A stretch of 64,000 bases of DNA from contig CAOKLO010000002.1 in NCBI GenBank assembly GCA_948469375.1, forward strand, positions 1 through 64,000, written 5' to 3'. A program made the translations under genes and the position numbers. Numbering within the stretch: position 1 is the stretch's first letter; every line of letters starts with the position of its first letter. This DNA comes from an uncultured bacterium (lineage in GTDB: Bacteria; Bacillota; Clostridia; Oscillospirales; Oscillospiraceae). Under the pieces are notes generated by a model. The model searched no databases, was not told the DNA's origin, and saw nothing but the letters and a program-made list of their open reading frames with translations. Of the stretch, positions 724 to 13,081 are shown one piece after another.

Positions 724-1086
724 ATGATGAGAAACTGCAAGAGCAAATCCGCAGGCTGGCCCAGGAAGTCTTGTCCGAGATTTCAGACGCTGGATTCTTC
801 CCGCAGCAAAGAACTCCTCGGGACCTTCGTTTCAGAACTATTTCTTTCGGTTGCGGAACAGGAGCGCCGTCAAATGCGCCGCCAGAAACAGGCGGAAGGG
901 ATTGCGGCGGCAAGAGAACGCGGGGTACAGTTTGGCCGCCAGCACCTGCCTGTGCCGGACGGCTTCGAGGATCTGGCGCGGCAGTGGGAAAACGGCGGCA
1001 TCTCCGCCGGAAGCGCTGCCGCAAAGCTGGGTATGTCCCGGGACACGTTTCTGCGCAGGGCAAGGGAATACCGTACTGCCACATAA
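724..1086 (+). pseudogene. Serine resolvase C-terminal remnant
   Basis: From about residue 30 the frame reads like the end of a small serine resolvase: a long E-helix (VSELFLSVAEQERRQMR), the linker GIAAARERGVQFGR, and a C-terminal helix-turn-helix (SAAAKLGMSRDTFLRRA). The catalytic N-terminal domain, with its serine in a Y-x-R-V-S context, is missing, and the first 30 residues are unrelated low-quality sequence. It ends 14 bases before the dead TnpB gene. It could still be translated, but it cannot catalyse recombination. The intact res-like repeats upstream fit its origin as tnpR of a degraded transposon. Confidence 0.6.
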
Positions 1087-1100
1087 AAGGAGGGCTCGTC

Positions 1101-2282
1101 ATGCCGCGAAAGCCGAAAAAGCCGGTTGAGGACGGCAAAGCCCTCCAGTACACCACCCTCAAGGTCCGTCTCTATCCCACTCAGGCGCAGGCGGAGTTGT
1201 TTGAGAACACCTTCGGCTGCTGCCGCTACATCTGGAACCATATGCTGGCCGACCAGCAGCGGTTCTATCTGGAGACCGACAAGCACTTTATCCCCACCCC
1301 GGCCAAGTACAAGAAGGAAGCGCCGTTTTTGAAAGAGGTAGACAATCAGGCGCTGATTCAGGAGCACAATAAGCTGTCCCAGGCGTTTCGGGTGTTTTTC
1401 AAAGACCCCAGAACCTTTGGCCCGCCAAAGTTCAAAAAGAAAAAGACCGACAAGGATTCTTTCACCGCCTGTAACCACGAGTTTGAGTCCGGCCCAACCA
1501 TTTACATTACCAGGGACGGTATCCGCATGACCAAGGCCGGGATCATCCGGGCTAAGTTCTCCCGCCGCCCGCGAAACGGCTGGAAGCTGAAGCGGGTCAC
1601 GGTGGAGAAAACCAAATCAGGCAAATACTTCGCCTACATTCTTTATGAGTACATCGTAAAGGAGCCGGAGACAATTATCCCCACCCCGGAGACCACCGTA
1701 GGTTTGAAATATTCCATGGGCCACTTCTATGCGGCGGACAGCGGCGAACTGGCCGACCCGCCCCACTGGCTGAAAGCCTCCCAGGAAAAGCTGGCAAAAA
1801 TCCAGAAGCGGCTCAGCCGAATGGAACCAGGTTCCAAAAATTATCAGGAAGCAGTCCAGAAGTACCGCGAACTCCATGAGCACATCGCCAACCAGCGCCG
1901 CGACTTCATCCACAAGGAATCCAGCCGGATAGCCAACGGCTGGGACGCCGTGTGTGTGAGGGGCGATTCTATGCGGGAGGTATCAAAAAAGAAGGTGCTC
2001 CCGGGGAACGCGCTGGAAAGCGGATTCGGAATGTTCCGGGAGTGCCTGCGCTACAAGCTGGCGCGACAGGGCAAGACGCTGATCGTAGTAGACCGTGCGG
2101 CCCTCACCACAAAGACCTGTTCCGCCTGCGGGTTCGTCCGAAACGACAAACCCCACCGCAAGGGAACTTGGATCTGTCCCAAATGTGGTGTGGTACATGA
2201 CCGGGAGGTCAACGCGGCGAAAAACATCAAGGCCCAGGGGCTTGCCCAATATTCCAGTATGCAGGAGCGGGAAGCCGCTTAG
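1101..2282 (+). CDS. Nuclease-dead TnpB-family protein (TldR candidate)
   Basis: This 393-residue protein has the full TnpB/IS605 OrfB layout: an N-terminal wedge/REC region (TTLKVRLYPTQAQ, about 18-30; YIWNHMLADQ), a RuvC fold, and an intact four-cysteine zinc ribbon (C340, C343, C359, C362). The three catalytic acids are all replaced. The first aspartate of the usual GLDxSM motif is K203 (GLKYSM). The glutamate of IxIEDLxM is R287 (VCVRGDSM). The aspartate of DRDxNA is E369 (DREVNA). DNA cleavage is therefore not expected, while RNA and DNA binding may persist. TnpB-like nuclease-dead repressors (TldR) in Enterobacteriaceae sit beside flagellin genes and silence host flagellin using a guide RNA. 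Here csrA and flagellin follow on the same strand. No transposase TnpA is present. The ATG at 1101 has an AGGAGGG site; in-frame sequence extends upstream to 699 but is not TnpB-like. Confidence 0.85.
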   Translation: MPRKPKKPVEDGKALQYTTLKVRLYPTQAQAELFENTFGCCRYIWNHMLADQQRFYLETDKHFIPTPAKYKKEAPFLKEVDNQALIQEHNKLSQAFRVFFKDPRTFGPPKFKKKKTDKDSFTACNHEFESGPTIYITRDGIRMTKAGIIRAKFSRRPRNGWKLKRVTVEKTKSGKYFAYILYEYIVKEPETIIPTPETTVGLKYSMGHFYAADSGELADPPHWLKASQEKLAKIQKRLSRMEPGSKNYQEAVQKYRELHEHIANQRRDFIHKESSRIANGWDAVCVRGDSMREVSKKKVLPGNALESGFGMFRECLRYKLARQGKTLIVVDRAALTTKTCSACGFVRNDKPHRKGTWICPKCGVVHDREVNAAKNIKAQGLAQYSSMQEREAA

Positions 2283-2600
2283 CAGATAGCCCTTATTGGG
2301 GCCCCACACGAGCCCAGCGAAGCGGGTCGCGTGGGGAGAGGACGAGCAGCGAAATGAGCGAGCTTTCCCGTTTGCGGGGAAGTGAGGGATATGGAGCTTG
2401 CGAGGACGATATGCCGGTCGGAACGCCGGTGAACGCCCATGGTTCCGGCTGAGGAAGCGTTGATCGAAGCGAAACCATCTTTGATTTTGTTTCGATCAGC
2501 GTTATCCAAAGCCGTTGAGTGGGAAACGAGAGGCCGCCTTTCTTCTGAATCGCGGCTGAAAGCCCCTTGGGGCTGTTCAAAATATTATGACGATGAAAAG
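2283..2600 (+). ncRNA. Candidate omega-RNA scaffold and guide of the dead TnpB
   Basis: The 337 bases between the TnpB stop and csrA hold no gene but several strong hairpins: CCCCACACGA paired with TCGCGTGGGG (2302-2335), a stem around 2458-2502 (CGTTGATCGAA with TTCGATCAGCG), and a final AGCCCC-TT-GGGGCT hairpin (2561-2574) followed by TGTTCAA ending at 2580. TnpB guide RNAs start in the 3' end of tnpB and end in a GC-rich hairpin and a short TTCA-type motif at the old transposon right end. The guide is whatever follows. By that rule the guide starts at 2581 (AATATTATGACGATGAAAAG) and lies in the csrA leader. The 5' boundary and guide length are guesses; TldR guides can be shorter than 16 bases. 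Confidence 0.65.
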
Positions 2601-2619
2601 CAGGCGAAAGGAGTTTGCC

Positions 2620-2994
2620 ATGCTGTTTCTGCAACTCAAAACAGGAGAATACATGACCATCGGCGATGATGTGATTGTCCAGCTGAACGACGTTTCCGGC
2701 AATCACTGTAAGCTGATGGTCGAAGCCCCCAGGGAAGTCCCCGTCATGCGGGGCGAGTTGCTGGAACGCGCCGGGGCGGAACGCCCGGAATGCGTGATGG
2801 AAACGGCCCGCCAGCGCCGGTCGGGATCGGGATTGTCCTGGAATCGGAACAAACTCCAGGCGCTGATCACCATGCGGCGGCTGCTTGGGCAAATGGACGG
2901 CGGGGATGACCGCGTGAAGGATCTGCGCCGTCAGCTCGATTTTCTGTTCCCGCCCGAGTTCGCGTCCAACGAGACAGTCTACGCGCCAAAATAA
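2620..2994 (+). CDS. csrA: CsrA-like RNA-binding regulator with C-terminal extension
   Basis: Residues 1-50 align with CsrA along its whole core: MLFLQLKTGEYMTIGDD, then KLMVEAPREVPVMRGELLER. CsrA dimers bind GGA motifs in mRNA leaders and, in motile Firmicutes, repress flagellin translation. Leu4, Val42 and Arg44 of the RNA-binding surface are kept, but the usual Arg6 is Leu. Typical CsrA is 60-75 residues; this one is 124, with a charged, probably helical extension (about 55-124) that I do not recognise. The ATG at 2620 has a good AAAGGAG site and the family's normal MLxL start, so the further upstream ATG at 2587 is unlikely. It sits between the candidate omega RNA and flagellin, all on the same strand. 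Confidence 0.8.
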   Translation: MLFLQLKTGEYMTIGDDVIVQLNDVSGNHCKLMVEAPREVPVMRGELLERAGAERPECVMETARQRRSGSGLSWNRNKLQALITMRRLLGQMDGGDDRVKDLRRQLDFLFPPEFASNETVYAPK

Positions 2995-3162
2995 TTTCGG
3001 TTTCAAACGGTTGACGAGCCGGTTGAAATACAGCGCCGAGCCAATGTTCCAAAGGCCACGGAAACAGGCAAAGCGTGCCCTCCATTGTGCCGGATCCAGG
3101 GAATAGGTGAAAGCACAGTGAAGGAACCCCAGCAATCATTTTATTTATAGGAGGACTATAAA
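2995..3162 (+). promoter_or_regulatory. Flagellin leader with GGA motifs (candidate CsrA sites)
   Basis: The 168 bases before flagellin contain GGA at 3060, 3092, 3100, 3123, 3150 and 3153. The last two lie within the Shine-Dalgarno AGGAGGA (3149-3155), the position where CsrA blocks hag translation in Bacillus. No clear SigD/sigma-28 promoter (TAAA, spacer, GCCGATAT) is visible, so flagellin may be read from an upstream promoter together with csrA. CsrA binding is inferred from the motif and the neighbouring csrA gene. Confidence 0.5.
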
Positions 3163-4929
3163 ATGAGGATCCAACACAACATCATGGCTATGAACGCATA
3201 TCGCAACTACACCAACAACGTCTCCGCCATGAAGGCGAACCTGGAGAAGCTCTCCAGCGGCTATAAGATCAACCGCGCGGGCGACGACGCCGCCGGTCTG
3301 GCGATTTCTGAGAAGATGCGCGCCCAGATTACCGGCCTGGAGACCGCCCAGAAGAACGCCAAGGACGGCATCTCCCTGGTGCAGACCGCTGAGGGCGCTC
3401 TGACTGAGGTTCATGACATGCTCAACCGTATGGTGGAGCTGGCCACCCAGTCCGCCAACGGCACCTACGACGACACCACCGACCGCAACCAGATGCAGAA
3501 GGAGCTGGACCAGCTGCGCTCCGAGATCAACCGCATCGCCGACTCCTCCAACTTCAACGGCATCAAGCTGTTTGATGGCACCATGGAGGCCGACTCCGTG
3601 AAGTACGAGGTGGGCAGCAAGTCCGATCTGACCATTCTGGCTGGCGGCACCACCGCCGTCGGCCAAGCTGGCACCAGCACCATCGTCCACAAGGACGGCC
3701 AGCAGGCCGCCAAGACCAAGTTCGAGGTCGAGCTTGGGAACATCTCCTTCACCACCACTGCCACTGGCAACCAGACCGTTACTGTCACTATCGGCACCGA
3801 TACGGTTACCGCCTCCGTGGCCAACGGCGCGTCCGGCGCGGATCTGGCCAAGGGGATCGTGGGGAGCACCGGTGAAAAAGAGGTTCTCATTGGCGGCGTG
3901 AGCTACAACGTGACGGCCGATGGCTCCAAGCTGGTCTTTGAGATGACCGACGCCGCCAAGGATGCTTCCACTGCCGCGGCCAGCTTCACCGGTAACTTTG
4001 GCGTTTTGGTGTCGGGCGTTGGAGTCCAGGGCGGCACGGTCAACCTGGCCACCCAGGTCATCACTGAGGGCGCGCCCAAGACGGGCACCGTCTTGGCTAA
4101 CACCCAAACCGACGCCGCCTTTACCAAGGCCGATATTGTAGACGGCAAGGCCATCACCGTGGGCGACGTCACCTATGTGTTTGCCAGCAAGAAGGAGACC
4201 CTGGATGCCATTGCCGCCGCCGGCGACGGCTTCAAGGCCGTGGACATCAGCGACCTGGTGGATGACAACGGCGCGCTGGACGACAATAAGGCCGGCACCG
4301 GCGACGCCCTGTCCGAGGCCCTCAGCCGCCTGACCGTGGCCGCCAAGGACAACAAGATGTTCACCGTGGGCCAGACTAACGATTACAAGCTGACCTTCCA
4401 GGAGAAGGAAGACTATAACGGCAACGGCAAGGGCGGCCGGGCCGACCTGACCACCCAGGAGGGCGTCCAGAAGCAGATCCAGACCGGCACCTTCAACGCC
4501 GTCAAGGTCGCGGCCAAGAACGGCACCGGCAAGGGCCTGACCCTCCAGATCGGCGACACCGCCGACAGCTACAACCAGCTGAAGGTCAGCCTGGGCGATA
4601 TGCACACCAACTCCCTGGGCATCGCCGGCATCAGCATTGCCGATCAGGACAGCGCCGCCAAGGCTGTTGAGGCCATCAAGGCCGCCATCAACCAGGTGTC
4701 CGACGTCCGCGGTACTCTGGGCGCCACCCAGAACCGCTTGGACCACACCATCAACAACCTGTCCGTCATGACCGAGAACATCCAGGACGCCGAGTCCACC
4801 ATCCGCGACGTGGACGTGGCCGAGGAAATGATGGCCTACACCAAGAACAACATCCTGATCCAGTCCGCTCAGGCCATGCTGGCTCAGGCCAACCAGGTGC
4901 CTCAGGGCGTCCTCCAGCTCCTCCAGTAA
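3163..4929 (+). CDS. fliC: Flagellin
   Basis: This 588-residue flagellin, the filament subunit secreted by the flagellar type III system, has both conserved ends: MRIQHNIMAMNAYRN and LSSGYKINRAGDDAAGLAI at the N-terminus (D0/D1, about 1-140), and the C-terminal D1/D0 region (about 500-588) with LGATQNRLDHTINNL and MLAQANQVPQGVLQLL. Between them lies a long variable, surface-exposed segment rich in Thr, Ala, Gly and Asp, likely the site of modification. It is longer than the roughly 275-residue minimal Clostridia flagellins. The ATG at 3163 has an AGGAGGA site. It is followed at once by a terminator and by the modification island, which suggests that those enzymes act on this protein. Confidence 0.95.
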   Translation: MRIQHNIMAMNAYRNYTNNVSAMKANLEKLSSGYKINRAGDDAAGLAISEKMRAQITGLETAQKNAKDGISLVQTAEGALTEVHDMLNRMVELATQSANGTYDDTTDRNQMQKELDQLRSEINRIADSSNFNGIKLFDGTMEADSVKYEVGSKSDLTILAGGTTAVGQAGTSTIVHKDGQQAAKTKFEVELGNISFTTTATGNQTVTVTIGTDTVTASVANGASGADLAKGIVGSTGEKEVLIGGVSYNVTADGSKLVFEMTDAAKDASTAAASFTGNFGVLVSGVGVQGGTVNLATQVITEGAPKTGTVLANTQTDAAFTKADIVDGKAITVGDVTYVFASKKETLDAIAAAGDGFKAVDISDLVDDNGALDDNKAGTGDALSEALSRLTVAAKDNKMFTVGQTNDYKLTFQEKEDYNGNGKGGRADLTTQEGVQKQIQTGTFNAVKVAAKNGTGKGLTLQIGDTADSYNQLKVSLGDMHTNSLGIAGISIADQDSAAKAVEAIKAAINQVSDVRGTLGATQNRLDHTINNLSVMTENIQDAESTIRDVDVAEEMMAYTKNNILIQSAQAMLAQANQVPQGVLQLLQ

Positions 4930-5081: not shown

Positions 5082-7229
5082 ATGTCAAAGCCTCTGCTGT
5101 CCATTGGCATCATTTTTAAAAACGAGATCCGCTGTCTGGAGCGGTGCTTGAAGTCCCTCCAGCCCCTGCGGGACGCCCTGCCATGCGAACTGGTCATGGC
5201 GGACACCGGCGCTACAGATGGGAGCCGGGAGATCGCGGAGAAGTACGCGGACATTTTGTTTGACTTTCCCTGGATCAACGACTTCTCCGCTGCCCGCAAC
5301 GCGGTGATAGAGCGCTGTTCCGGGCAGTGGTACATGAGCATCGACTGTGACGAGTGGGTAGATCCCAACATCGAGGGATATGTCAAATTCCTCACCAGCG
5401 ACAAGGAGTTTGACTTCGCCTCGGTCATCATCCGCAACTACAGCACAGCGGGGCTGGAAAAGAGCGGGGGGTATTCCGACTTTCTGGCGGTGCGTCTGCT
5501 GCGCCTATCTTCCGGCATCCGGTATGAAGGCGCCATTCACGAGCACTTGCCTTACAAGGGCGATCTACATACCATGCTGATCCGGGGTGGTATTTTCCAT
5601 CACGATGGGTATGTATTCCAGGATCAGACGAGGCAAAAAGAAAAACAGCAACGGAACATGGAACTGCTGCGTGAGCAGCTAGAACGGGACCCGGATAACC
5701 TCATCATCCTGACTCAGTGCATTGAGTCGGGAGATGGACAGCCGGAGCAGTTGGATTATCTGCGTCGTGCCATGGCGGGGGTGGCCGAAAAGCGGTCCCA
5801 GTGGGAGCTGTTCGGCCCGGTGATCTACCGCCATGCGCTGCGTTATGCCATTGGGAAGGATCTGCCGGAATTTGAGGAGTGGCTTCAGACGGCGAAGGAT
5901 CAATTTCCCAGCTCCATCTTCGTCCGGGTGGAGATCGCCTATTTCGCCTTTGGCTATTACTGGAACAAGGACGACTACGCCAAGAGCATCTACTGGGGAG
6001 AGAAGTACCTTCAGGGGGTGGAGGACTACCACGCCGGGAAATTTAACAGAGCTGACTTGCTGGCCAGCTCGCTGTATAGGACAGAAGCCAGCAGCCGCCT
6101 CAGCGTAGCCTCAGTGCTGGCCTCCGGCTATCTCCATGAGAAGCAGCCGGAAAAATGCCTCAAACTGATGGAGACCTTCAACGGCCGGGAGCTGGACGCC
6201 AAGCAGGCCGGGGACTGCGTGCGCAACATCTGCAACCTGTACAGCCATTTTGAGGTGGACACCGCCCCCCTGCTGCTGCGGCTCTGGGAGGAGCTGAACG
6301 AGGCGGTCCCCACCCAGGCCCAGGCGGACCAGCGCCGCGCCGGGTTTGTCCAGGTGGGCGCGGAGATGTTTGAGGGGACGTTCATCCGCTCCGAGGAGAC
6401 GGAGGCGGACGTGGTTCACCACGCCTACACCGTGTTTCTGCCCTTGGGAGACAGGTGCGAGCTGGGGATTGCGGCGCAGATGCTGGGGACAGAGGCCGTC
6501 TCCGCCCTGGAAGCCCTGCTGGGTAAGGTGAAGGAGCTGGAAAAGCTGCCCGGACACGCGCTGGCCCACGCGCTGGGTTGCGGGGCGCGGTTCCCGCTGG
6601 AGAACCGCCCGCTGACCATTGAGCAAATGGATCTTCTGGCCGGCGGCATTGCCCAGGATAAGGACGAGCTGTACGGTTTGGTGCGGCAGGCGAGGGAGAA
6701 GGAGCTCCCTGACAGCGCGCAGGAGCTGGGCTGGGCCCGGGGGCTGTGCATGGCGGCGGTGAAGGTGTGCCCCTGGAAGGAGATTGACGGGGAGACCGGG
6801 CTATTGCTGTCCAGGGCTTTTGCCAGAGTGGAACGGGCGTATCTGCCGGTGTGCTACGCACCAGAGGTTTTGAACCGGGAAAACCTATTTCTGCTGCCGC
6901 CCCTGCACCGTTTCGGCTACTACTGCGCCCAGGCGTTTGACGCGCTGGACGTCGGAGACACGGCGGGCTATGTGCACTTGCTGCGGGAGGGCTTGTCCGT
7001 CTGCGAGGGTGTGAAGGATATGGTGGAGTTCCTCATCGACCACACGCCGGAATTGCGGACCCCGTCGGATGAGCTGAACGCCCTCGCGGAACAGATCCGG
7101 ACGGTGCTGGCGAACTTCCCGCCGGACGATCCTGCAGTGGCGGCGCTGAAGCAGAGCGAAGCATACCAGAAGGTGGCCTATCTGATCGAGGGTATTGAAG
7201 TTCCCGTTATGGGAGGGCTTGCCCAATGA
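5082..7229 (+). CDS. Family 2 glycosyltransferase with long helical repeat region
   Basis: Residues 1-230 form a GT-A fold: LLSIGIIFKNE at the start, DTGATDGS (41-48) for nucleotide binding, and the metal-binding DCDE (88-91) after MSI. The remaining 480 residues are predicted helical with TPR-like character and no recognised catalytic motif; similar tails in flagellin-associated transferases may hold the protein acceptor. It is the first gene after flagellin, so a role in adding or extending the flagellin glycan is likely. The acceptor and sugar cannot be told from sequence. The ATG at 5082 follows AAAGGAGAG. Its end overlaps the next gene by four bases, which implies translational coupling. 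Confidence 0.8.
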   Translation: MSKPLLSIGIIFKNEIRCLERCLKSLQPLRDALPCELVMADTGATDGSREIAEKYADILFDFPWINDFSAARNAVIERCSGQWYMSIDCDEWVDPNIEGYVKFLTSDKEFDFASVIIRNYSTAGLEKSGGYSDFLAVRLLRLSSGIRYEGAIHEHLPYKGDLHTMLIRGGIFHHDGYVFQDQTRQKEKQQRNMELLREQLERDPDNLIILTQCIESGDGQPEQLDYLRRAMAGVAEKRSQWELFGPVIYRHALRYAIGKDLPEFEEWLQTAKDQFPSSIFVRVEIAYFAFGYYWNKDDYAKSIYWGEKYLQGVEDYHAGKFNRADLLASSLYRTEASSRLSVASVLASGYLHEKQPEKCLKLMETFNGRELDAKQAGDCVRNICNLYSHFEVDTAPLLLRLWEELNEAVPTQAQADQRRAGFVQVGAEMFEGTFIRSEETEADVVHHAYTVFLPLGDRCELGIAAQMLGTEAVSALEALLGKVKELEKLPGHALAHALGCGARFPLENRPLTIEQMDLLAGGIAQDKDELYGLVRQAREKELPDSAQELGWARGLCMAAVKVCPWKEIDGETGLLLSRAFARVERAYLPVCYAPEVLNRENLFLLPPLHRFGYYCAQAFDALDVGDTAGYVHLLREGLSVCEGVKDMVEFLIDHTPELRTPSDELNALAEQIRTVLANFPPDDPAVAALKQSEAYQKVAYLIEGIEVPVMGGLAQ

Positions 7230-8002
7230 AGGTCGTAATTCTAGCCGGAGGCCTGGGTACCCGAATCAGTGAGGAGAGTTACTTGAAGCCCAAGCCTATG
7301 ATTACCATCGGCGACCAGCCGATTCTGTGGCACATTATGAAGTATTATTCCCACTTCGGGTTCCACGATTTCGTGATCTGCTGCGGTTATAAGGGCCATG
7401 TCATCAAGGAATATTTCGCGGATTATTACCTTTACCGCTCCGATGTGACCTTCGACTTTTCCGCTGAAAACCGCATGACGGTGCATCAAAATGTAGCCGA
7501 GCCGTGGCGGGTGACGCTGGTGGATACCGGTCTCAATACCCAGACAGGTGCCCGGGTGAAGCGGGTGCAAAAGTACATCGGAGACGAACCGTTCATGCTC
7601 ACCTACGGCGACGGGGTAAGCGACGTGGATCTGAATGCCTTGCTGGAACAGCACAAACGCTCCGGCAAAACCGTTACCCTCACCGGTGTCCAGCCCGGCG
7701 GGCGATTCGGCGTATTGGATCTGGAGGGCCAAACCGTCACCGGGTTCCGGGAGAAGGCCGGGGAGGACGGCGGCTGGATCAACGGCGGGTTCATGGTCAT
7801 GGAGCCGGAGGTTTTCGATTACCTGAGTGTGGAGGAGTCCTGCGTGTTGGAGCGCCAGCCAATGGAGACCCTCGTGCAGGAGGGTCAGCTGGGCATCTAT
7901 AAGCACCGGGAGTTCTGGCAGTGTATGGACACCCAGCGGGACCGGATCTGGCTGGAGGAGCGGTGGAAAAACGATACCGCACCGTGGAAGGTTTGGGCCT
8001 GA
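7226..8002 (+). CDS. rfbF: Glucose-1-phosphate cytidylyltransferase
   Basis: This enzyme makes CDP-glucose from CTP and glucose-1-phosphate, the first step of CDP-deoxyhexose synthesis. The nucleotidyltransferase signature AGGLGTR is at 7-13, with KPKPM just after, and YGDGVSDVD supplies the metal-binding aspartate. The long match through GGWINGGFMVMEPEVFDYL is typical of RfbF rather than RfbA. At 258 residues it has the usual family length. The start ATG overlaps the previous stop (ATGA). With rfbG two genes downstream it commits glucose-1-phosphate to CDP-4-keto-6-deoxyglucose. Confidence 0.92.
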   Translation: MKVVILAGGLGTRISEESYLKPKPMITIGDQPILWHIMKYYSHFGFHDFVICCGYKGHVIKEYFADYYLYRSDVTFDFSAENRMTVHQNVAEPWRVTLVDTGLNTQTGARVKRVQKYIGDEPFMLTYGDGVSDVDLNALLEQHKRSGKTVTLTGVQPGGRFGVLDLEGQTVTGFREKAGEDGGWINGGFMVMEPEVFDYLSVEESCVLERQPMETLVQEGQLGIYKHREFWQCMDTQRDRIWLEERWKNDTAPWKVWA

Positions 8003-8005
8003 GCG

Positions 8006-9298
8006 ATGAAAATTCTGCACATTGCCGCCCACTTGGGCGGCGGAGCGGGCAAGGCAATCTCCGGTATTGCAATTCAAGGCCAACAGTTTTTCAAAGATAC
8101 GCACCGGATCTTGTTGCTCCAACAACCGGAGAAGACAGTCTATGTTCAGGAGTGCTGGAGAAACGGCGTAGAGGTTAGCAACTGGAATGACAACCTGGTG
8201 CTTCTGGGCTGGGCAGATGTGGTTGTGGTCAGCTGGTGGAATCACCCGGTCATGGCGCGGTTTTTGAGGGAGCTTCCACCGCTAGAAGTTCCGTTGGTGT
8301 TGTGGTGCCATGTGAATGGTTGCCACTATCCCATGTTGCCCGCTGTGTTTGCGGAGGAATTTGACAGAATTTTGTTTACTTCTCCTTATTCGCTGGAAAA
8401 TTCGCTTTGGACTCAGGCGGAGCGGCTGAGAATCCGGGAAAAGTTTGAAATTGTCTGGGGGATGGGGCAGTTCGCACCAGAGGAAATGATCCCCAAGGGC
8501 GATTATAAAAACCGTGATATGTTTACTGTGGGCTATGTTGGGACCCTGAATTACGGGAAAATCCATCCGAATTTCGCTGCCTACTGCAAAGAAGCGTACA
8601 GCAGGATTCCAAATATAAAGTTTGTGCTGGCCGGAGACCAAGACGCGGTTCTGGAGCAGGAGATCCGCTCCGCCGGGCTGGCCGAACGGGCAACATTCAC
8701 CGGGTTTGTCTCTGACGCTCCGGCGCTGATGCGCACCTTTGATGTATTCGGCTACCTGCTGAATCCAGAGCACTACGGGACCACGGAAAACGTTCTTTTG
8801 GAGGCCATGGCCTGTGGTCTTCCGGTGATTGCGCTGCGGCAGAATGTAGAGCAGTATATCATTCCGCCGGAGGCTGGGGCGTTGGTGGAAGACGCGGCTG
8901 AGTATGTCCAGCAGTTGGAAACGCTGTGGAAGGACCCGGTCAAGCGGAGGAAGATGGGGCATTGTGCCCGAGCCTGTGTGATTGAGCGGTATGACGGGAG
9001 AAAAAATGCGAAAAACTTCCGAATTGCCTGCCGCAGCGCGGCGTCAGCCCGGGAAAGAGCGCATAGTTTCACTTTTTTGGGCGATTCTCCATGGGAGTGG
9101 TTTTTGCACTTTTTGGATGAGCGGAATCGCGCGCTGCTGGAGACAGCCCGGGAACTGGACGACCTTTTCGCGCGAGATGCGCTCCGGAAATGCTCCCCTA
9201 TCTTAAGGGAAAAGCGCAAGAGTTCCCTGCGGCATTTTGCCGCCATCTATCCTCAAGATGAAATCTTGCAAAGATTCGACAGCCTATTGAAAGAATAA
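8006..9298 (+). CDS. Family 4 (GT-B) glycosyltransferase
   Basis: This 430-residue protein has a GT-B shape: an N-terminal MKILHIAAHLGGGAGKA with the glycine-rich acceptor-domain start, and a C-terminal nucleotide-sugar domain with VGYVGTLNYGKI, a GFVSD turn and the E-x7-E motif in EHYGTTENVLLEAMACGLPVI. It is probably a retaining transferase. It lies between rfbF and rfbG, so a CDP-derived or other deoxyhexose is a possible donor, but specificity is not readable. The start is three bases after the previous stop, so it is in the same operon. The last 100 residues are charged and helical. Confidence 0.82.
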   Translation: MKILHIAAHLGGGAGKAISGIAIQGQQFFKDTHRILLLQQPEKTVYVQECWRNGVEVSNWNDNLVLLGWADVVVVSWWNHPVMARFLRELPPLEVPLVLWCHVNGCHYPMLPAVFAEEFDRILFTSPYSLENSLWTQAERLRIREKFEIVWGMGQFAPEEMIPKGDYKNRDMFTVGYVGTLNYGKIHPNFAAYCKEAYSRIPNIKFVLAGDQDAVLEQEIRSAGLAERATFTGFVSDAPALMRTFDVFGYLLNPEHYGTTENVLLEAMACGLPVIALRQNVEQYIIPPEAGALVEDAAEYVQQLETLWKDPVKRRKMGHCARACVIERYDGRKNAKNFRIACRSAASARERAHSFTFLGDSPWEWFLHFLDERNRALLETARELDDLFARDALRKCSPILREKRKSSLRHFAAIYPQDEILQRFDSLLKE

Positions 9299-9310
9299 GG
9301 AGAGGCGGTT

Positions 9311-10375
9311 ATGGCTGTGCAAATATCTGATTTGACGTTCTTCCAGGGGAAGCGGGTGTTTATTACCGGACACACCGGGTTTAAAGGGTCCTGGCTGTGC
9401 ACTGCCCTGACCTTGGCAGGCGCGGAGGTTTTCGGGTTTGCTTTGCCGCCCGCCGGTGCGGAAAACCTCTATATGCTGGCGGAGGTCGAAAAAGCCGTAC
9501 ATTCCACTTTTGGGAATATTCAGGATTTTCCCGCACTGAAAGCAGCTTTTGACCGGGCCTGCCCGGAAATCGTGTTCCATTTGGCGGCTCAGCCCATTGT
9601 CCGGGAGAGCTACCGGAACCCTGTGAGCACCTACCACACGAATGTGATGGGAACGGTCCACCTTCTGGAGTGCGTGCGTCAGTGTGATTGTGTGCGAAGC
9701 GTACTCAACGTGACCACGGACAAGGTCTATCAGAATAATCAATGGCACTGGGGTTATCGGGAAACCGACAGATTAAACGGGTATGACCCCTACTCCAATT
9801 CCAAATCCTGCTCAGAATTGGTGACGGAGAGCTACCGGAACAGTTTTTTCCCCGCCGGAACGGCGGCAGTCAGCACGGCCCGGGCGGGCAATGTCATCGG
9901 CGGCGGCGACTTTTCCGTTGACCGAATTGTTCCAGACTGTGTCCGTGCGGTGCGCGATGGAAGGCCTATTGCCATCCGCAACCCAAGTGCCATCCGCCCA
10001 TACCAGCACGTCCTGGAGCCGCTCAGTGCCTATCTGTTGATCGTCCAACGGCAGTGGGAGGACGGTGCGTTGGCGGGCAGCTACAACGTGGGTCCGGAGA
10101 ACAACGGCTGTGTCTCCACCGCCCGTTTGGCCAGCCTGTTCTGTCATGCGTGGGGAGATGGCGCTGCCTGGGAGCATGTGGGAGACCATGGCCCCCATGA
10201 AGATGCGGTGCTGAAGCTGGACTGCTCAAAAATCCAAGAGGTACTGGGCTGGCACCCCCGCTGGACAGCGGAGCGGGCGGTGCGGGAAACCGTGGACTGG
10301 ACAAAGGCATGGCTGGCGGGAGAAGAAATGTCCAGCTGGACGCGGCGGCAGATTGAGATGTTTTACACAGAGTGA
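9311..10375 (+). CDS. rfbG: CDP-glucose 4,6-dehydratase
   Basis: This short-chain dehydrogenase converts CDP-glucose to CDP-4-keto-6-deoxyglucose using bound NAD. FITGHTGFKGSWL carries the GxxGxxG dinucleotide motif near residue 18, NVTTDKVY is the active-site strand, and YSNSK is the YxxxK catalytic pair. The HLAAQPIVRESYRNP stretch is characteristic of RfbG. The 354 residues match the family. It lies 12 bases after the transferase with its own AAGGAGAGG site. It works directly after rfbF, and its product feeds the epimerase (22721) and reductase (24359) at the far end of the island. Confidence 0.92.
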   Translation: MAVQISDLTFFQGKRVFITGHTGFKGSWLCTALTLAGAEVFGFALPPAGAENLYMLAEVEKAVHSTFGNIQDFPALKAAFDRACPEIVFHLAAQPIVRESYRNPVSTYHTNVMGTVHLLECVRQCDCVRSVLNVTTDKVYQNNQWHWGYRETDRLNGYDPYSNSKSCSELVTESYRNSFFPAGTAAVSTARAGNVIGGGDFSVDRIVPDCVRAVRDGRPIAIRNPSAIRPYQHVLEPLSAYLLIVQRQWEDGALAGSYNVGPENNGCVSTARLASLFCHAWGDGAAWEHVGDHGPHEDAVLKLDCSKIQEVLGWHPRWTAERAVRETVDWTKAWLAGEEMSSWTRRQIEMFYTE

Positions 10376-10386
10376 GGACAGTTAAT

Positions 10387-11904
10387 ATGGCAGAAAAATT
10401 CATCGAAATCAACACAAATGGACTCCAGGGCCCCAGGGTGGGGGACGGGCTGTTTGAAAACCGCTCCGCAGTGGCGGAACAGCTTCGGCAAACGGTGTCG
10501 GCCGAGGTTACCATTATTATACAGGCATATGGGCGATTGGAAAAGACAAAACGTTGTGTTGAAAGTGTGCTAAACTATACAAATGGTATCGACTATGAGT
10601 TGATCCTGATAGACAATGGCTCTACAGACGACACATTGGAATACTTCCGATCCATTCCCTGGGAGAAGAAGACCGTTTTGCATGTCACACAGAATATCGG
10701 CGCAGGGTATCCATCCCTGATGCTTGGATTGGGCCATTTTGGTCAGTATGTGTGTATACTCGGCAGCGATATCATCGTTACGAACAATTGGTTGAGCAAT
10801 CTTTTGGACTGCCTAAGATCTGACTCAAAAATCGGCATGGTTGTGCCTGTTTCCTCTAACGTGTCCAATTTGCAGGAAGTAGAGATCCCATTTAAAAGCT
10901 ATGAGGAAATGCAGTCGGCGGCAAAGCGCTTTAATCAGCCGGACCCCAAAAAGTGGGAGGAGCGGCTGCGGCTTATCACTGTGGCTGCTGTCTATCGGAA
11001 GGAGGTTTTCCTTTCGCTGGGCTGGCCGCTGTCTGACTCCGGATTTTTCCATGATTTTGTCGATGACGATGTTAGCTTTGCCGTCCGGCGCGCGGGCTAT
11101 CGGACTATGGTAGCGGGGGATACCTGGGTGTGCCATGATCACGATTTTCGGCACAGCGAGGGGAAGGATCCGGCGGAATTTGAGCAGTCGTTGAAAATTG
11201 GGAAGGACAATTTTCGGGAAAAGTACCACGGTCTGGATGCCTGGGAGGATGTGAACAATTTTTACATCCCCTATCTGGATCGCCTGCCCTACAAAAGAAG
11301 CGCAGATGTTGCCTGGGTCTTGGGTGTGGATGTGAGGTGTGGTACTCCAATCTTGGACGTGAAAAATTGGCTGCGCCGATGTGGGACCGGACAAGCGGAA
11401 TTGTCTGCGTTTACACAGGACGCAAAATACTGGCTTGATTTGAAAACTATCTGCCAGGGCCCGGTGATTTGTGACCGGGAGGAGTTTTTGACGGACTCCT
11501 TCCCTCGAGAATATTTCGATTACGTGGTAGCCGACCGGCCGGTCAACCGCTACCACGAGCCCCAGAAGATGCTGAATGATCTCTTTTCGCTGTGTAAAAA
11601 AGGCGGTGTGGTTCTCTGCAAGGTGCAGAACGCCTTTTCTTTCCGGGAGTATATCCATCTCCTGGGACAAAGGGATGTGTGTGCTGAGGAATTTTCTTAC
11701 AATATTCCATTTGAGGCAGTTCAAGTGGCATTAAATAAGCTTGGAACGGTTAAGCATGTATTTGGCATTCCGTTTGTCACGCCAAATGGGCAGAAAGAGC
11801 TTCTCGAATCTTTGATTCCCGCCGCTTTTTCCAGCGCGGAGAAGGCGGATATTGTCAATCGAATGTGTTGTCAAGAGTTTATGCTTTTCGTGGAAAAAGC
11901 ATAG
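10387..11904 (+). CDS. Family 2 glycosyltransferase with C-terminal methyltransferase-like region
   Basis: The N-terminal half is a GT2 domain: VTIIIQAYGRLEKTKRC, then LIDNGSTDDT for nucleotide binding, ILGSDII as the acidic metal motif, and DDDVSFAVRRAGY near the acceptor loop. The C-terminal 200 residues (VLGVDVRCGTPILDV and DYVVADRPVNRY) resemble the tail of a SAM-dependent methyltransferase core without a complete SAM-binding motif. I chose ATG 10387 over the GTG at 10372 because the TGAGG stretch is properly spaced in front of it. Base composition is more AT-rich than rfbG just before it. It is likely a second glycan-extension step. Confidence 0.75.
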   Translation: MAEKFIEINTNGLQGPRVGDGLFENRSAVAEQLRQTVSAEVTIIIQAYGRLEKTKRCVESVLNYTNGIDYELILIDNGSTDDTLEYFRSIPWEKKTVLHVTQNIGAGYPSLMLGLGHFGQYVCILGSDIIVTNNWLSNLLDCLRSDSKIGMVVPVSSNVSNLQEVEIPFKSYEEMQSAAKRFNQPDPKKWEERLRLITVAAVYRKEVFLSLGWPLSDSGFFHDFVDDDVSFAVRRAGYRTMVAGDTWVCHDHDFRHSEGKDPAEFEQSLKIGKDNFREKYHGLDAWEDVNNFYIPYLDRLPYKRSADVAWVLGVDVRCGTPILDVKNWLRRCGTGQAELSAFTQDAKYWLDLKTICQGPVICDREEFLTDSFPREYFDYVVADRPVNRYHEPQKMLNDLFSLCKKGGVVLCKVQNAFSFREYIHLLGQRDVCAEEFSYNIPFEAVQVALNKLGTVKHVFGIPFVTPNGQKELLESLIPAAFSSAEKADIVNRMCCQEFMLFVEKA

Positions 11905-11947
11905 CGGTTCAAAACCATTACAGTGCTTAGAAAGGATGCAATTGAGA

Positions 11948-13081
11948 ATGATGAGTATTGGACTGTTTTTGGATGAGGAAACATCAAATATGATGTCATC
12001 TGTGCTGGAGGAAATCCGCCGCGGAAACAGGAAAATGATATTTTTTGGCGCCGGGCGTATGGCCAGAGCATTCATTAAGGCCTATTGTGGGGAAAAGGGA
12101 CAATTGCCGTTGCCAGCCTATATCTGTGACAACAATCAGAACCTGTGGGGAGAGACGATTGCGAGCGTGCCGATCGTTTCTCCGGAAACGCTAAAGCAGG
12201 AATCTCTGGAAGACACGGAGAACGTGGTGATCGTCCTGGCACAGGTGCTGCCGTTCACCATGCTGGAGACGCTGCAATCTACCTATGAGGATGGCGGTTT
12301 GCAGAAGTATTACCATCTCATGCTGCCGCTCAGTCAGTTGGAGACATATCTATTCTATTGCGAGAATCATGAACGGGTGGATCACGTCTATGCGGTCTTG
12401 GCAGACGATTGGTCAAAATATGCGTACAAAAGGTATTTTCAATATCTAATGGGAGGAAATCTGGTGTTCCCGACGATTTTTACGGCGAATGCGTATTGGG
12501 GAAACGATCTTAATGGAAGATTACGAGACAATGAAGTAGTGGTGTACGCTGGAGCCTATGACGGAAAGCATTTGGATCGGGCGCTGAAGAGTAATTCCAA
12601 TATCGAATTACATGGGTTTGAGCCTAACAAGAACTGCGCGGTGCTGTTAGACAAAAAATATGCGCATTTGCCCAATGTCCATATCCACAAATTCGGATTG
12701 GGCGATCAGGCAAAGCAGTTGCGTTTTGACAATACGGCGGGCTCCTCGGCCATGACAGTATCCGATACTGCACGGCCTGAGCGGGCATACGATACCATTG
12801 ATATTGAGCGTATGGACCGTGTTCTGAAAGGACGGGTAGATTTGATTGCGCTGGATATTGAAGGAGACGAAATTAAAGCGCTTCACGGTGCGGAGGGGAT
12901 CATTCGGGAGAGTAAGCCCGTGCTGGCCATATGCGTATATCATCGAATTGAACACTACGTTGAGGTGATGGAGGCCATTGAACGGATTTGCCCGGGCTAT
13001 GAGTTTCACTTCCGCCAGCACTCTATTGTTCCGCACGAATCGGTGCTGTACGCAGTTTATAAAGGGGATCGCCATGAATAA
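11948..13081 (+). CDS. FkbM-family methyltransferase (copy 1)
   Basis: The N-terminal 150 residues begin with a Rossmann-like MIFFGAGRMARAFI, a domain often fused to FkbM enzymes of flagellin loci. The C-terminal SAM domain has VYAGAYDGKHLDRAL, the acidic HGFEPN at the end of strand 2, and IALDIEGDEIKALHGAE, the FkbM hallmark. Such enzymes O-methylate sugars; here the likely substrate is a flagellin glycan residue. An upstream start at 11852 would overlap the previous gene; ATG 11948 with AAAGGA before it is preferred. It overlaps the next gene by eight bases. It is clearly more AT-rich than the 16-21 kb genes. Confidence 0.8.
   Translation: MMSIGLFLDEETSNMMSSVLEEIRRGNRKMIFFGAGRMARAFIKAYCGEKGQLPLPAYICDNNQNLWGETIASVPIVSPETLKQESLEDTENVVIVLAQVLPFTMLETLQSTYEDGGLQKYYHLMLPLSQLETYLFYCENHERVDHVYAVLADDWSKYAYKRYFQYLMGGNLVFPTIFTANAYWGNDLNGRLRDNEVVVYAGAYDGKHLDRALKSNSNIELHGFEPNKNCAVLLDKKYAHLPNVHIHKFGLGDQAKQLRFDNTAGSSAMTVSDTARPERAYDTIDIERMDRVLKGRVDLIALDIEGDEIKALHGAEGIIRESKPVLAICVYHRIEHYVEVMEAIERICPGYEFHFRQHSIVPHESVLYAVYKGDRHE

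Follow-up and report, generated by a model that had tools for sequence, protein, structure and literature searches.

A csrA-associated TldR locus with a flagellin-matching guide in an uncultured member of the Oscillospiraceae

We found that positions 1101-4929 of a 64,000-nucleotide window from an uncultured Oscillospiraceae bacterium (contig CAOKLO010000002.1 of assembly GCA_948469375.1) hold a csrA-associated TldR locus, i.e., a TnpB homolog with replaced catalytic residues, a guide RNA, a CsrA-like regulator and a flagellin, all on the forward strand and in that order by open reading frames and Pfam matches, as the original prediction had proposed. Loci of this kind have already been published (PMC13418256, Nat Microbiol 2026, whose text in turn cites earlier reports as its references 5 and 8), which answers the question, raised with that prediction, of whether the csrA-linked form had been described; what is added here is a family-wide rule of target matching and self-exemption. 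Judged from sequence, the locus is probably a flagellin cassette directed at a second flagellin gene of the same genome, on contig C72. Guided by its RNA, the catalytically broken TldR would bind that gene at codons 6-11, the binding would block its transcription, the CsrA of the cassette, presumably acting on the leader of the target, would likely repress its translation, and the flagellin of the cassette, mismatched to the guide at two of its first six positions, would serve in its place. Below, C2 denotes the window contig, C13, C72, C1, C62 and C40 denote further contigs of the same genome (G000), and L and G mark loci and genomes.

Guide matching and self-exemption of flagellins

The guide of the window (AATATTATGACGATGAA, positions 2581-2597 of the forward strand, the end being approximate) was delimited by comparison with flagellins and resembles flagellin codons 6-11. 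Against the coding start of the C72 flagellin it is exact at positions 1-9 and has two mismatches in 17, and, guides aside, this start is the only place in the own-genome search with at most two mismatches to the 17-base guide pattern. The flagellin start of the window itself has three mismatches to the shared guide pattern and four to its own guide, from which it differs at two of the first six positions. The predicted action on another flagellin thus gains a candidate target, albeit in the coding start (codons 6-11) and not in a promoter; a guide match to a flagellin promoter, as in the enterobacterial fliC TldRs, was not found in this genome. The original prediction was to fall if there were neither a guide match near a flagellar promoter nor a conserved linkage; what we found is another flagellin that is matched and a gene order that is kept among relatives. 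The predicted flagellin-switching device is supported in kind, with its best target beside a tldR of its own.

These relatives come from a scan of named genomes, for which the three own TldRs were aligned as the query. The scan yielded 76 loci, of which four are from Ectobacillus or Trichodesmium and the remainder carry titles that are mostly Oscillospiraceae, other Clostridia and uncultured gut records; loci of Oscillibacter sp. 1-3 and Flavonifractor plautii are among them, genera or species that text passages of PMC13418256 also name. Guide-based counts rest on 65 of 79 loci (62 of 65 being related and three own, 79 being the 76 related plus the three own), with guides recognized by similarity to a reference guide, which divergent guides could escape. 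Left out of the 65 were truncated or contig-cut loci (L123, L135, L143, L147, L148, L152 and L155), a second clade (L145, L146 and L150), the Ectobacillus TnpBs (L153, L154 and L156) and that of Trichodesmium (L157). Flagellins were surveyed in 49 genomes (48 related plus the own, not the genomes of all 76 loci), giving 114 flagellin starts collected by a pattern that requires G at guide position 10 and misses starts outside it. For the assignment of linkage, 76 tldR-like rows were entered and 22 rows at no more than 48% identity were dropped; ten flagellins linked to the second clade (<60% identity) and four at contig edges were counted apart.

Across these 49 genomes the nine-base seed AATATTATG is present in 34 of 40 unlinked flagellins versus five of 60 linked to the tldR clade of the window (Fisher p 2e-15); it is also carried by five of the ten flagellins linked to the second clade and by all four at contig edges. 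In 44 loci where the guide fit of the best other flagellin was compared with that of the own one, the other fitted better in 36, equally in eight and worse in none, and guide and best other flagellin agree in 44/44 loci at positions 1, 2, 4, 5, 11, 14 and 15. In 31 of 40 loci, an unlinked flagellin from the same genome agrees fully with guide positions 1-6, which correspond to the seed length that text passages of PMC13418256 report for the Enterobacter TldR; the own linked flagellin mismatches them in 60 of 64. Guides covary with their targets: over 13 positions (10 and 12 being left out) the guide-target fit amounts to 16 mismatches against a shuffle mean of 23.6, a value never equalled in 20,000 shuffles of genomes that ignored kinship. 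An example is G160, in which the guide reads AACATCATG, as does one unlinked flagellin, and the linked flagellin reads AATATTATG.

The linked flagellins disrupt the seed in several synonymous ways. Among 58 linked genes, 14 have ATA as the Ile codon 7, as against 0/59 for the Ile codon 3 (p 2e-5), and ATA is used for none of the 432 Ile codons within codons 8-140 of the 64 linked genes; conversely, ATT is depleted at codon 7 (8/58 versus 27/59 at codon 3, p 2e-4). On a tree of 94 flagellins (37 of the 40 unlinked and 57 of the 64 linked), a quick tree with long branches that was built with codons 1-12 excluded and from which three fetched contig-edge starts were kept out, linked and unlinked sequences are interleaved, with 32 changes, at least 15 of them forced; for 15 independent pairs on it the sign test has a median p of 0.001, with values from 0.0005 to 0.02. 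An association at position 3 (p 0.049) is post hoc and weak.

A near-fixed mismatch stands within this match, as guide position 10 (window position 2590) is A in 61 of 65 guides and flagellins have G. A Thr-type target, in which the guides' ACN would meet a Thr codon instead of the flagellins' GCN, was considered and rejected: a flagellin start with a Thr codon at this position was found in none of 150 family genomes, whose flagellin content was not checked, and one with any non-G base in none of the 49 genomes. RNAalifold pairs the A with a scaffold U at -5, a pair possible in 64 of 65 loci that gives no covariation evidence, the U being invariant. We tentatively posit, at a little under an even chance, that the cassettes are self-exempting exclusion modules, in which an RNA-guided silencer would act against competing flagellin starts and the own flagellin would be protected by synonymous recoding of the seed. 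Such an arrangement would be immunity-like, kept by selection and reached repeatedly, including in the csrA-less second TldR lineage, and the position-10 A might be kept for pairing with the scaffold U, with the seed held in the loop.

Several observations weigh against these readings. The C72 locus has its own tldR and the same guide and would therefore silence itself too; moreover, the C13 guide mismatches the C72 start at position 3. Genome matches with at most three mismatches are not rare (17 places versus eight for the reversed pattern), and hence the claim is carried by the position of the match and by the family evidence rather than by its count. Among the relatives, the best unlinked flagellin is mismatched within guide positions 1-6 in nine of 40 loci, the own flagellin is matched there in four of 64, and of 44 loci, 41 have a mismatch to the best other flagellin at position 10 and 11 have one at position 3. 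For 11 of the 49 genomes, among them the own, the pattern picked up no flagellin that was not linked to the tldR clade of the window. The start-proximal codons of linked and unlinked genes also differ in other ways, and a shuffle of guides among linked flagellins showed no significant avoidance of the own flagellin (2036/20,000), because guides hardly vary. Finally, a GGA hairpin in the leader fails to distinguish targets, being present in 17 of 30 flagellins outside the tldR clade of the window (29 unlinked and one at a contig edge) and in 34 of 64 linked ones, with shuffle rates of 0.27 and 0.18; the CsrA hairpin was accordingly rejected as a target marker, although C72 has the hairpin and C2 and C13 have none.

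An alternative account of the seed difference is inheritance from two flagellin lineages, or codon usage near the start, without selection for exemption. At codon 2, 51 of 60 linked genes have AGG or AGA and 30 of 40 unlinked ones CGT or CGC, 33 of the 40 unlinked genes have ATT at codon 3, and AAT encodes the Asn of codon 6 in 19 of 64 linked genes despite its rarity in the rest of the domain, so that start-proximal codons are AT-rich anyway; the non-significant avoidance shuffle is also in keeping with this account. We nevertheless regard it as unlikely, since ATA is enriched specifically at codon 7, linked and unlinked flagellins interleave on the tree and the independent pairs agree, and in G160 the guide, the target and the linked flagellin have all been exchanged together. 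That the module mainly autoregulates, with TldR and CsrA setting the level of the own flagellin in homeostasis rather than switching, appears quite unlikely to us: linked flagellins usually mismatch their own guide in positions 1-6 and the unlinked ones carry the seed, whereas the C72 locus and three related ones (L125, L128 and L134) do match their own flagellin there, and other bacteria are known to have homeostasis by CsrA, FliW and flagellin, in which CsrA acts on flagellin mRNA. It would be very improbable, lastly, for the tldR of the window to be a functionless, decaying IS605 remnant with csrA and flagellin as independent neighbors. Its catalytic residues are gone, a repeat lies between it and the scaffold, and the adjacent Hin gene is broken; against this, it is an open frame with 81% identity to the C13 tldR, its scaffold and guide are conserved, and the gene order is kept in most relatives.

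The tldR genes and their guide RNAs

The tldR gene (positions 1101-2282, forward strand) encodes 393 amino acids with three Pfam families above cut-off and the NCBIfam guided_TnpB model likewise over its cut-off. In one alignment, its RuvC positions read K, R and D versus D, E and D in two Ectobacillus TnpBs, such that the D-E-D triad of active IS200/IS605 TnpBs is absent; this agrees with the earlier claim of a TnpB lacking catalytic residues, and we infer that its nuclease activity has been lost. Each of the three own loci has K and R at the first two positions, as do 64 of 78 aligned relatives. The three own loci, on C2, C13 and C72, correspond to the three Cas12f1-like TNB domains found in the genome; that on C13 has the same four-part order as the window, and that on C72 is without csrA. 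The window begins at the end of a contig in an assembly of 143 contigs that is 91.6% complete with 6.24% contamination. In composition (GC 0.58, tetranucleotide r 0.954), C72 is inside the range of the window itself, which speaks against contamination without excluding it. Conservation of the order among relatives, which had been proposed as a check, was borne out: within 2.5 kb downstream, a flagellin is found in 64 of the 65 loci with a readable guide and csrA plus flagellin in 56.

The second clade of TnpBs with replaced catalytic residues (L145, L146 and L150) has 49-55% identity and carries N and K or R in three aligned members, and no csrA match was found beside these three loci. Further members occur at G153:C40, G173:C2, G174:C77 and C110, G186:C1, G187:C92 and G190:C113. 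Their guides, read by eye, begin either at TCARCATAATAT or with the G of the start codon of the flagellin, i.e., in other registers of the same flagellin start. In L149 (Oscillibacter sp. 1-3), the tldR is split, with about 3.7 kb between its parts at 6001-6648 and 10401-10592.

The structured RNA that had been proposed downstream of tldR has a stable fold and covariation, with a later start than assumed. Positions 2295-2409 match 14 other places in the genome, and are therefore a dispersed palindromic repeat (about 115 bases, REP-like by fold, with one copy between csrA and flagellin at C13) and not conserved guide-RNA sequence; the scaffold proper begins near 2413 and extends to 2580 on the forward strand by alignment and fold. 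Short matches downstream of tldR had suggested a dozen extra trans-acting solo guide RNAs. We rejected these as copies of the dispersed repeat, the matches stopping at 2409, one being inside the csrA-flagellin gap of C13, and the scaffold aligning after them. The RNA at 2408-2600 folds at -81.4 kcal/mol (z -5.67; 0/200 shuffles equally low), and 23 of 40 pairs predicted from 27 related scaffolds display one or more compensatory changes. A long stem at 2453-2507 (24 pairs with one bulge in the fold) resembles the enlarged stem that, in text passages of PMC13418256, is cut by RNase III in an Oscillibacter homolog.

The start of the guide at 2581 is as first proposed, and its end moves from 2600 to about 2597, where the agreement with flagellin stops (guide position 16-17). 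All 65 loci have T at -5 and C at -3 ahead of the guide, and the three own guides (C2, C13 and C72) have AAYATTATGACGATGAA in common. In a related genome, an exact guide-like 15-mer (G165:C100:30423-30437) lies about 165 bases upstream of a flagellin with no tldR found within reach, and is possibly a guide left behind without its tldR.

Cassette genes and the upstream region

Pfam bears out the csrA and flagellin identities. The csrA gene (positions 2620-2994, forward strand) encodes 124 amino acids; it matches PF02599 with 59 bits (cut-off 27), falls below the NCBIfam equivalog cut-off, and has a C-terminal extension past the CsrA domain (residues 1-50), with solved CsrA structures aligning to residues 1-57. 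This extension (window positions 2770-2994) is common, as 38 of 55 measured cassette csrA frames have at least 111 amino acids, and in L086 and L106 a tandem pair of csrA genes stands between tldR and flagellin. In contrast to the known CsrA-FliW homeostasis, the cassette csrA is a separate, extended copy, and the canonical-type csrA of the genome is on C1, beside a FliW-like frame recognized by eye. The flagellin gene (positions 3163-4929, forward strand) encodes 588 amino acids with both end domains and mismatches the guide at seed positions 3 and 6. In the own genome, flagellin N domains scoring above cut-off were found on C2, C13, C72, C62 and, weakly, C40, with that on C62 (G000:C62:11550-11963) having an in-frame TAG near its start. 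Downstream of the flagellin, window positions 5082-13081 encode glycosyltransferases, a nucleotidyl transferase, a sugar dehydratase and a methyltransferase, in place of which C13 has an APS-kinase-like gene; flagellin cassettes may each bring their own glycan genes.

Upstream of tldR, a Hin-like serine recombinase remnant (positions 790-1077, forward strand) was detected by tblastn with 49% identity to a C13 protein. It covers only residues 101-199 of that 201-amino-acid protein, the catalytic half being gone, and the frame has no Pfam match; its C13 counterpart is intact and matches PF00239 (Resolvase). A script scan, without shuffled control, further detected two dyad-symmetric 22-bp sites (522-543 and 637-658) that match as inverted copies at 18 of 22 bases and surround a sigma-D-like promoter facing tldR, with a -35 element at 570-573 and a -10 element, GCCGATAT, at 588-595, as judged by the consensus of such promoters. 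The segment 522-658 is a possible invertible promoter. Hin-like recombinases are found upstream in 31 of 49 loci with at least 2 kb of upstream sequence, and a strict scan, again with no shuffled control, found a pair of dyad sites upstream in 39 of the 65 loci; a promoter lies between such sites in ten, facing tldR in two (the window and L129) and away from it in eight. We infer that promoter inversion would provide on/off control of the cassette. At the contig start, a 148-amino-acid frame (75-521) has no Pfam or NCBIfam match.

Relation to known systems and significance

The phage-borne fliC TldRs of Enterobacteriaceae are reportedly the subject of work by Wiegand and colleagues from 2024. 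As far as text passages of PMC13418256 describe them, they are alike in that a nuclease-dead TnpB and its guide silence the host flagellin in favor of that of the element; unlike them, the locus of the window has its predicted target in the coding start rather than in a promoter, and csrA is added. No phage record was found at >60% identity to the TldR protein, and the search did not extend to prophage genes around the locus. In the Hin/fljBA phase variation of Salmonella, an invertible promoter is coupled to a repressor acting on the other flagellin; in contrast, the repressor here would be RNA-guided, and the putative inversion in the window is suggested by its sites. PMC13418256 also mentions this Salmonella system.

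The closest known systems are the csrA-associated TldRs of PMC13418256, a paper with seven such proteins, text passages of which report, for Oscillibacter homologs, guide-dependent DNA binding, targets inside flagellin reading frames and CsrA bound to the target leader. The passages also describe a guide RNA made of two parts, an Oscillibacter strain carrying four loci, and Hin together with promoter inversion. As portrayed there, these systems resemble ours in the RuvC-mutated TnpB, the adjacent guide RNA, csrA and flagellin, and in having several loci per Oscillibacter genome with cross-targeting, reading-frame targets and an enlarged scaffold stem; they also have Hin and promoter inversion upstream, of which the window displays the sites and the promoter only, its Hin being truncated. 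Differences from those passages are the Hin remnant, the absence of csrA from one of three loci and the placement of the best target beside its own tldR. The covariation of guide and target and the position-10 mismatch described here find no mention in the text passages of that paper, nor does self-exemption, a statement confined to its text as distinct from its figures, tables and supplements; in its main text the words "synonymous" and "escape" are absent, and "mismatch" occurs twice, in the passage on the Enterobacter TldR.

With this locus, the RNA-guided flagellin switch recently described in print is extended to a further gut-type genome, which has three tldR loci. The family comparison contributes a simple rule open to testing, namely that one silent codon change would determine the flagellin to be silenced. 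If this is true, targeting could be tested cleanly by replacing ATT with ATA at codon 7, and the flagellin made by the cell would be predictable from sequence in many Oscillospiraceae. Furthermore, a repressor and a product immune to that repressor could then spread jointly as one cassette.

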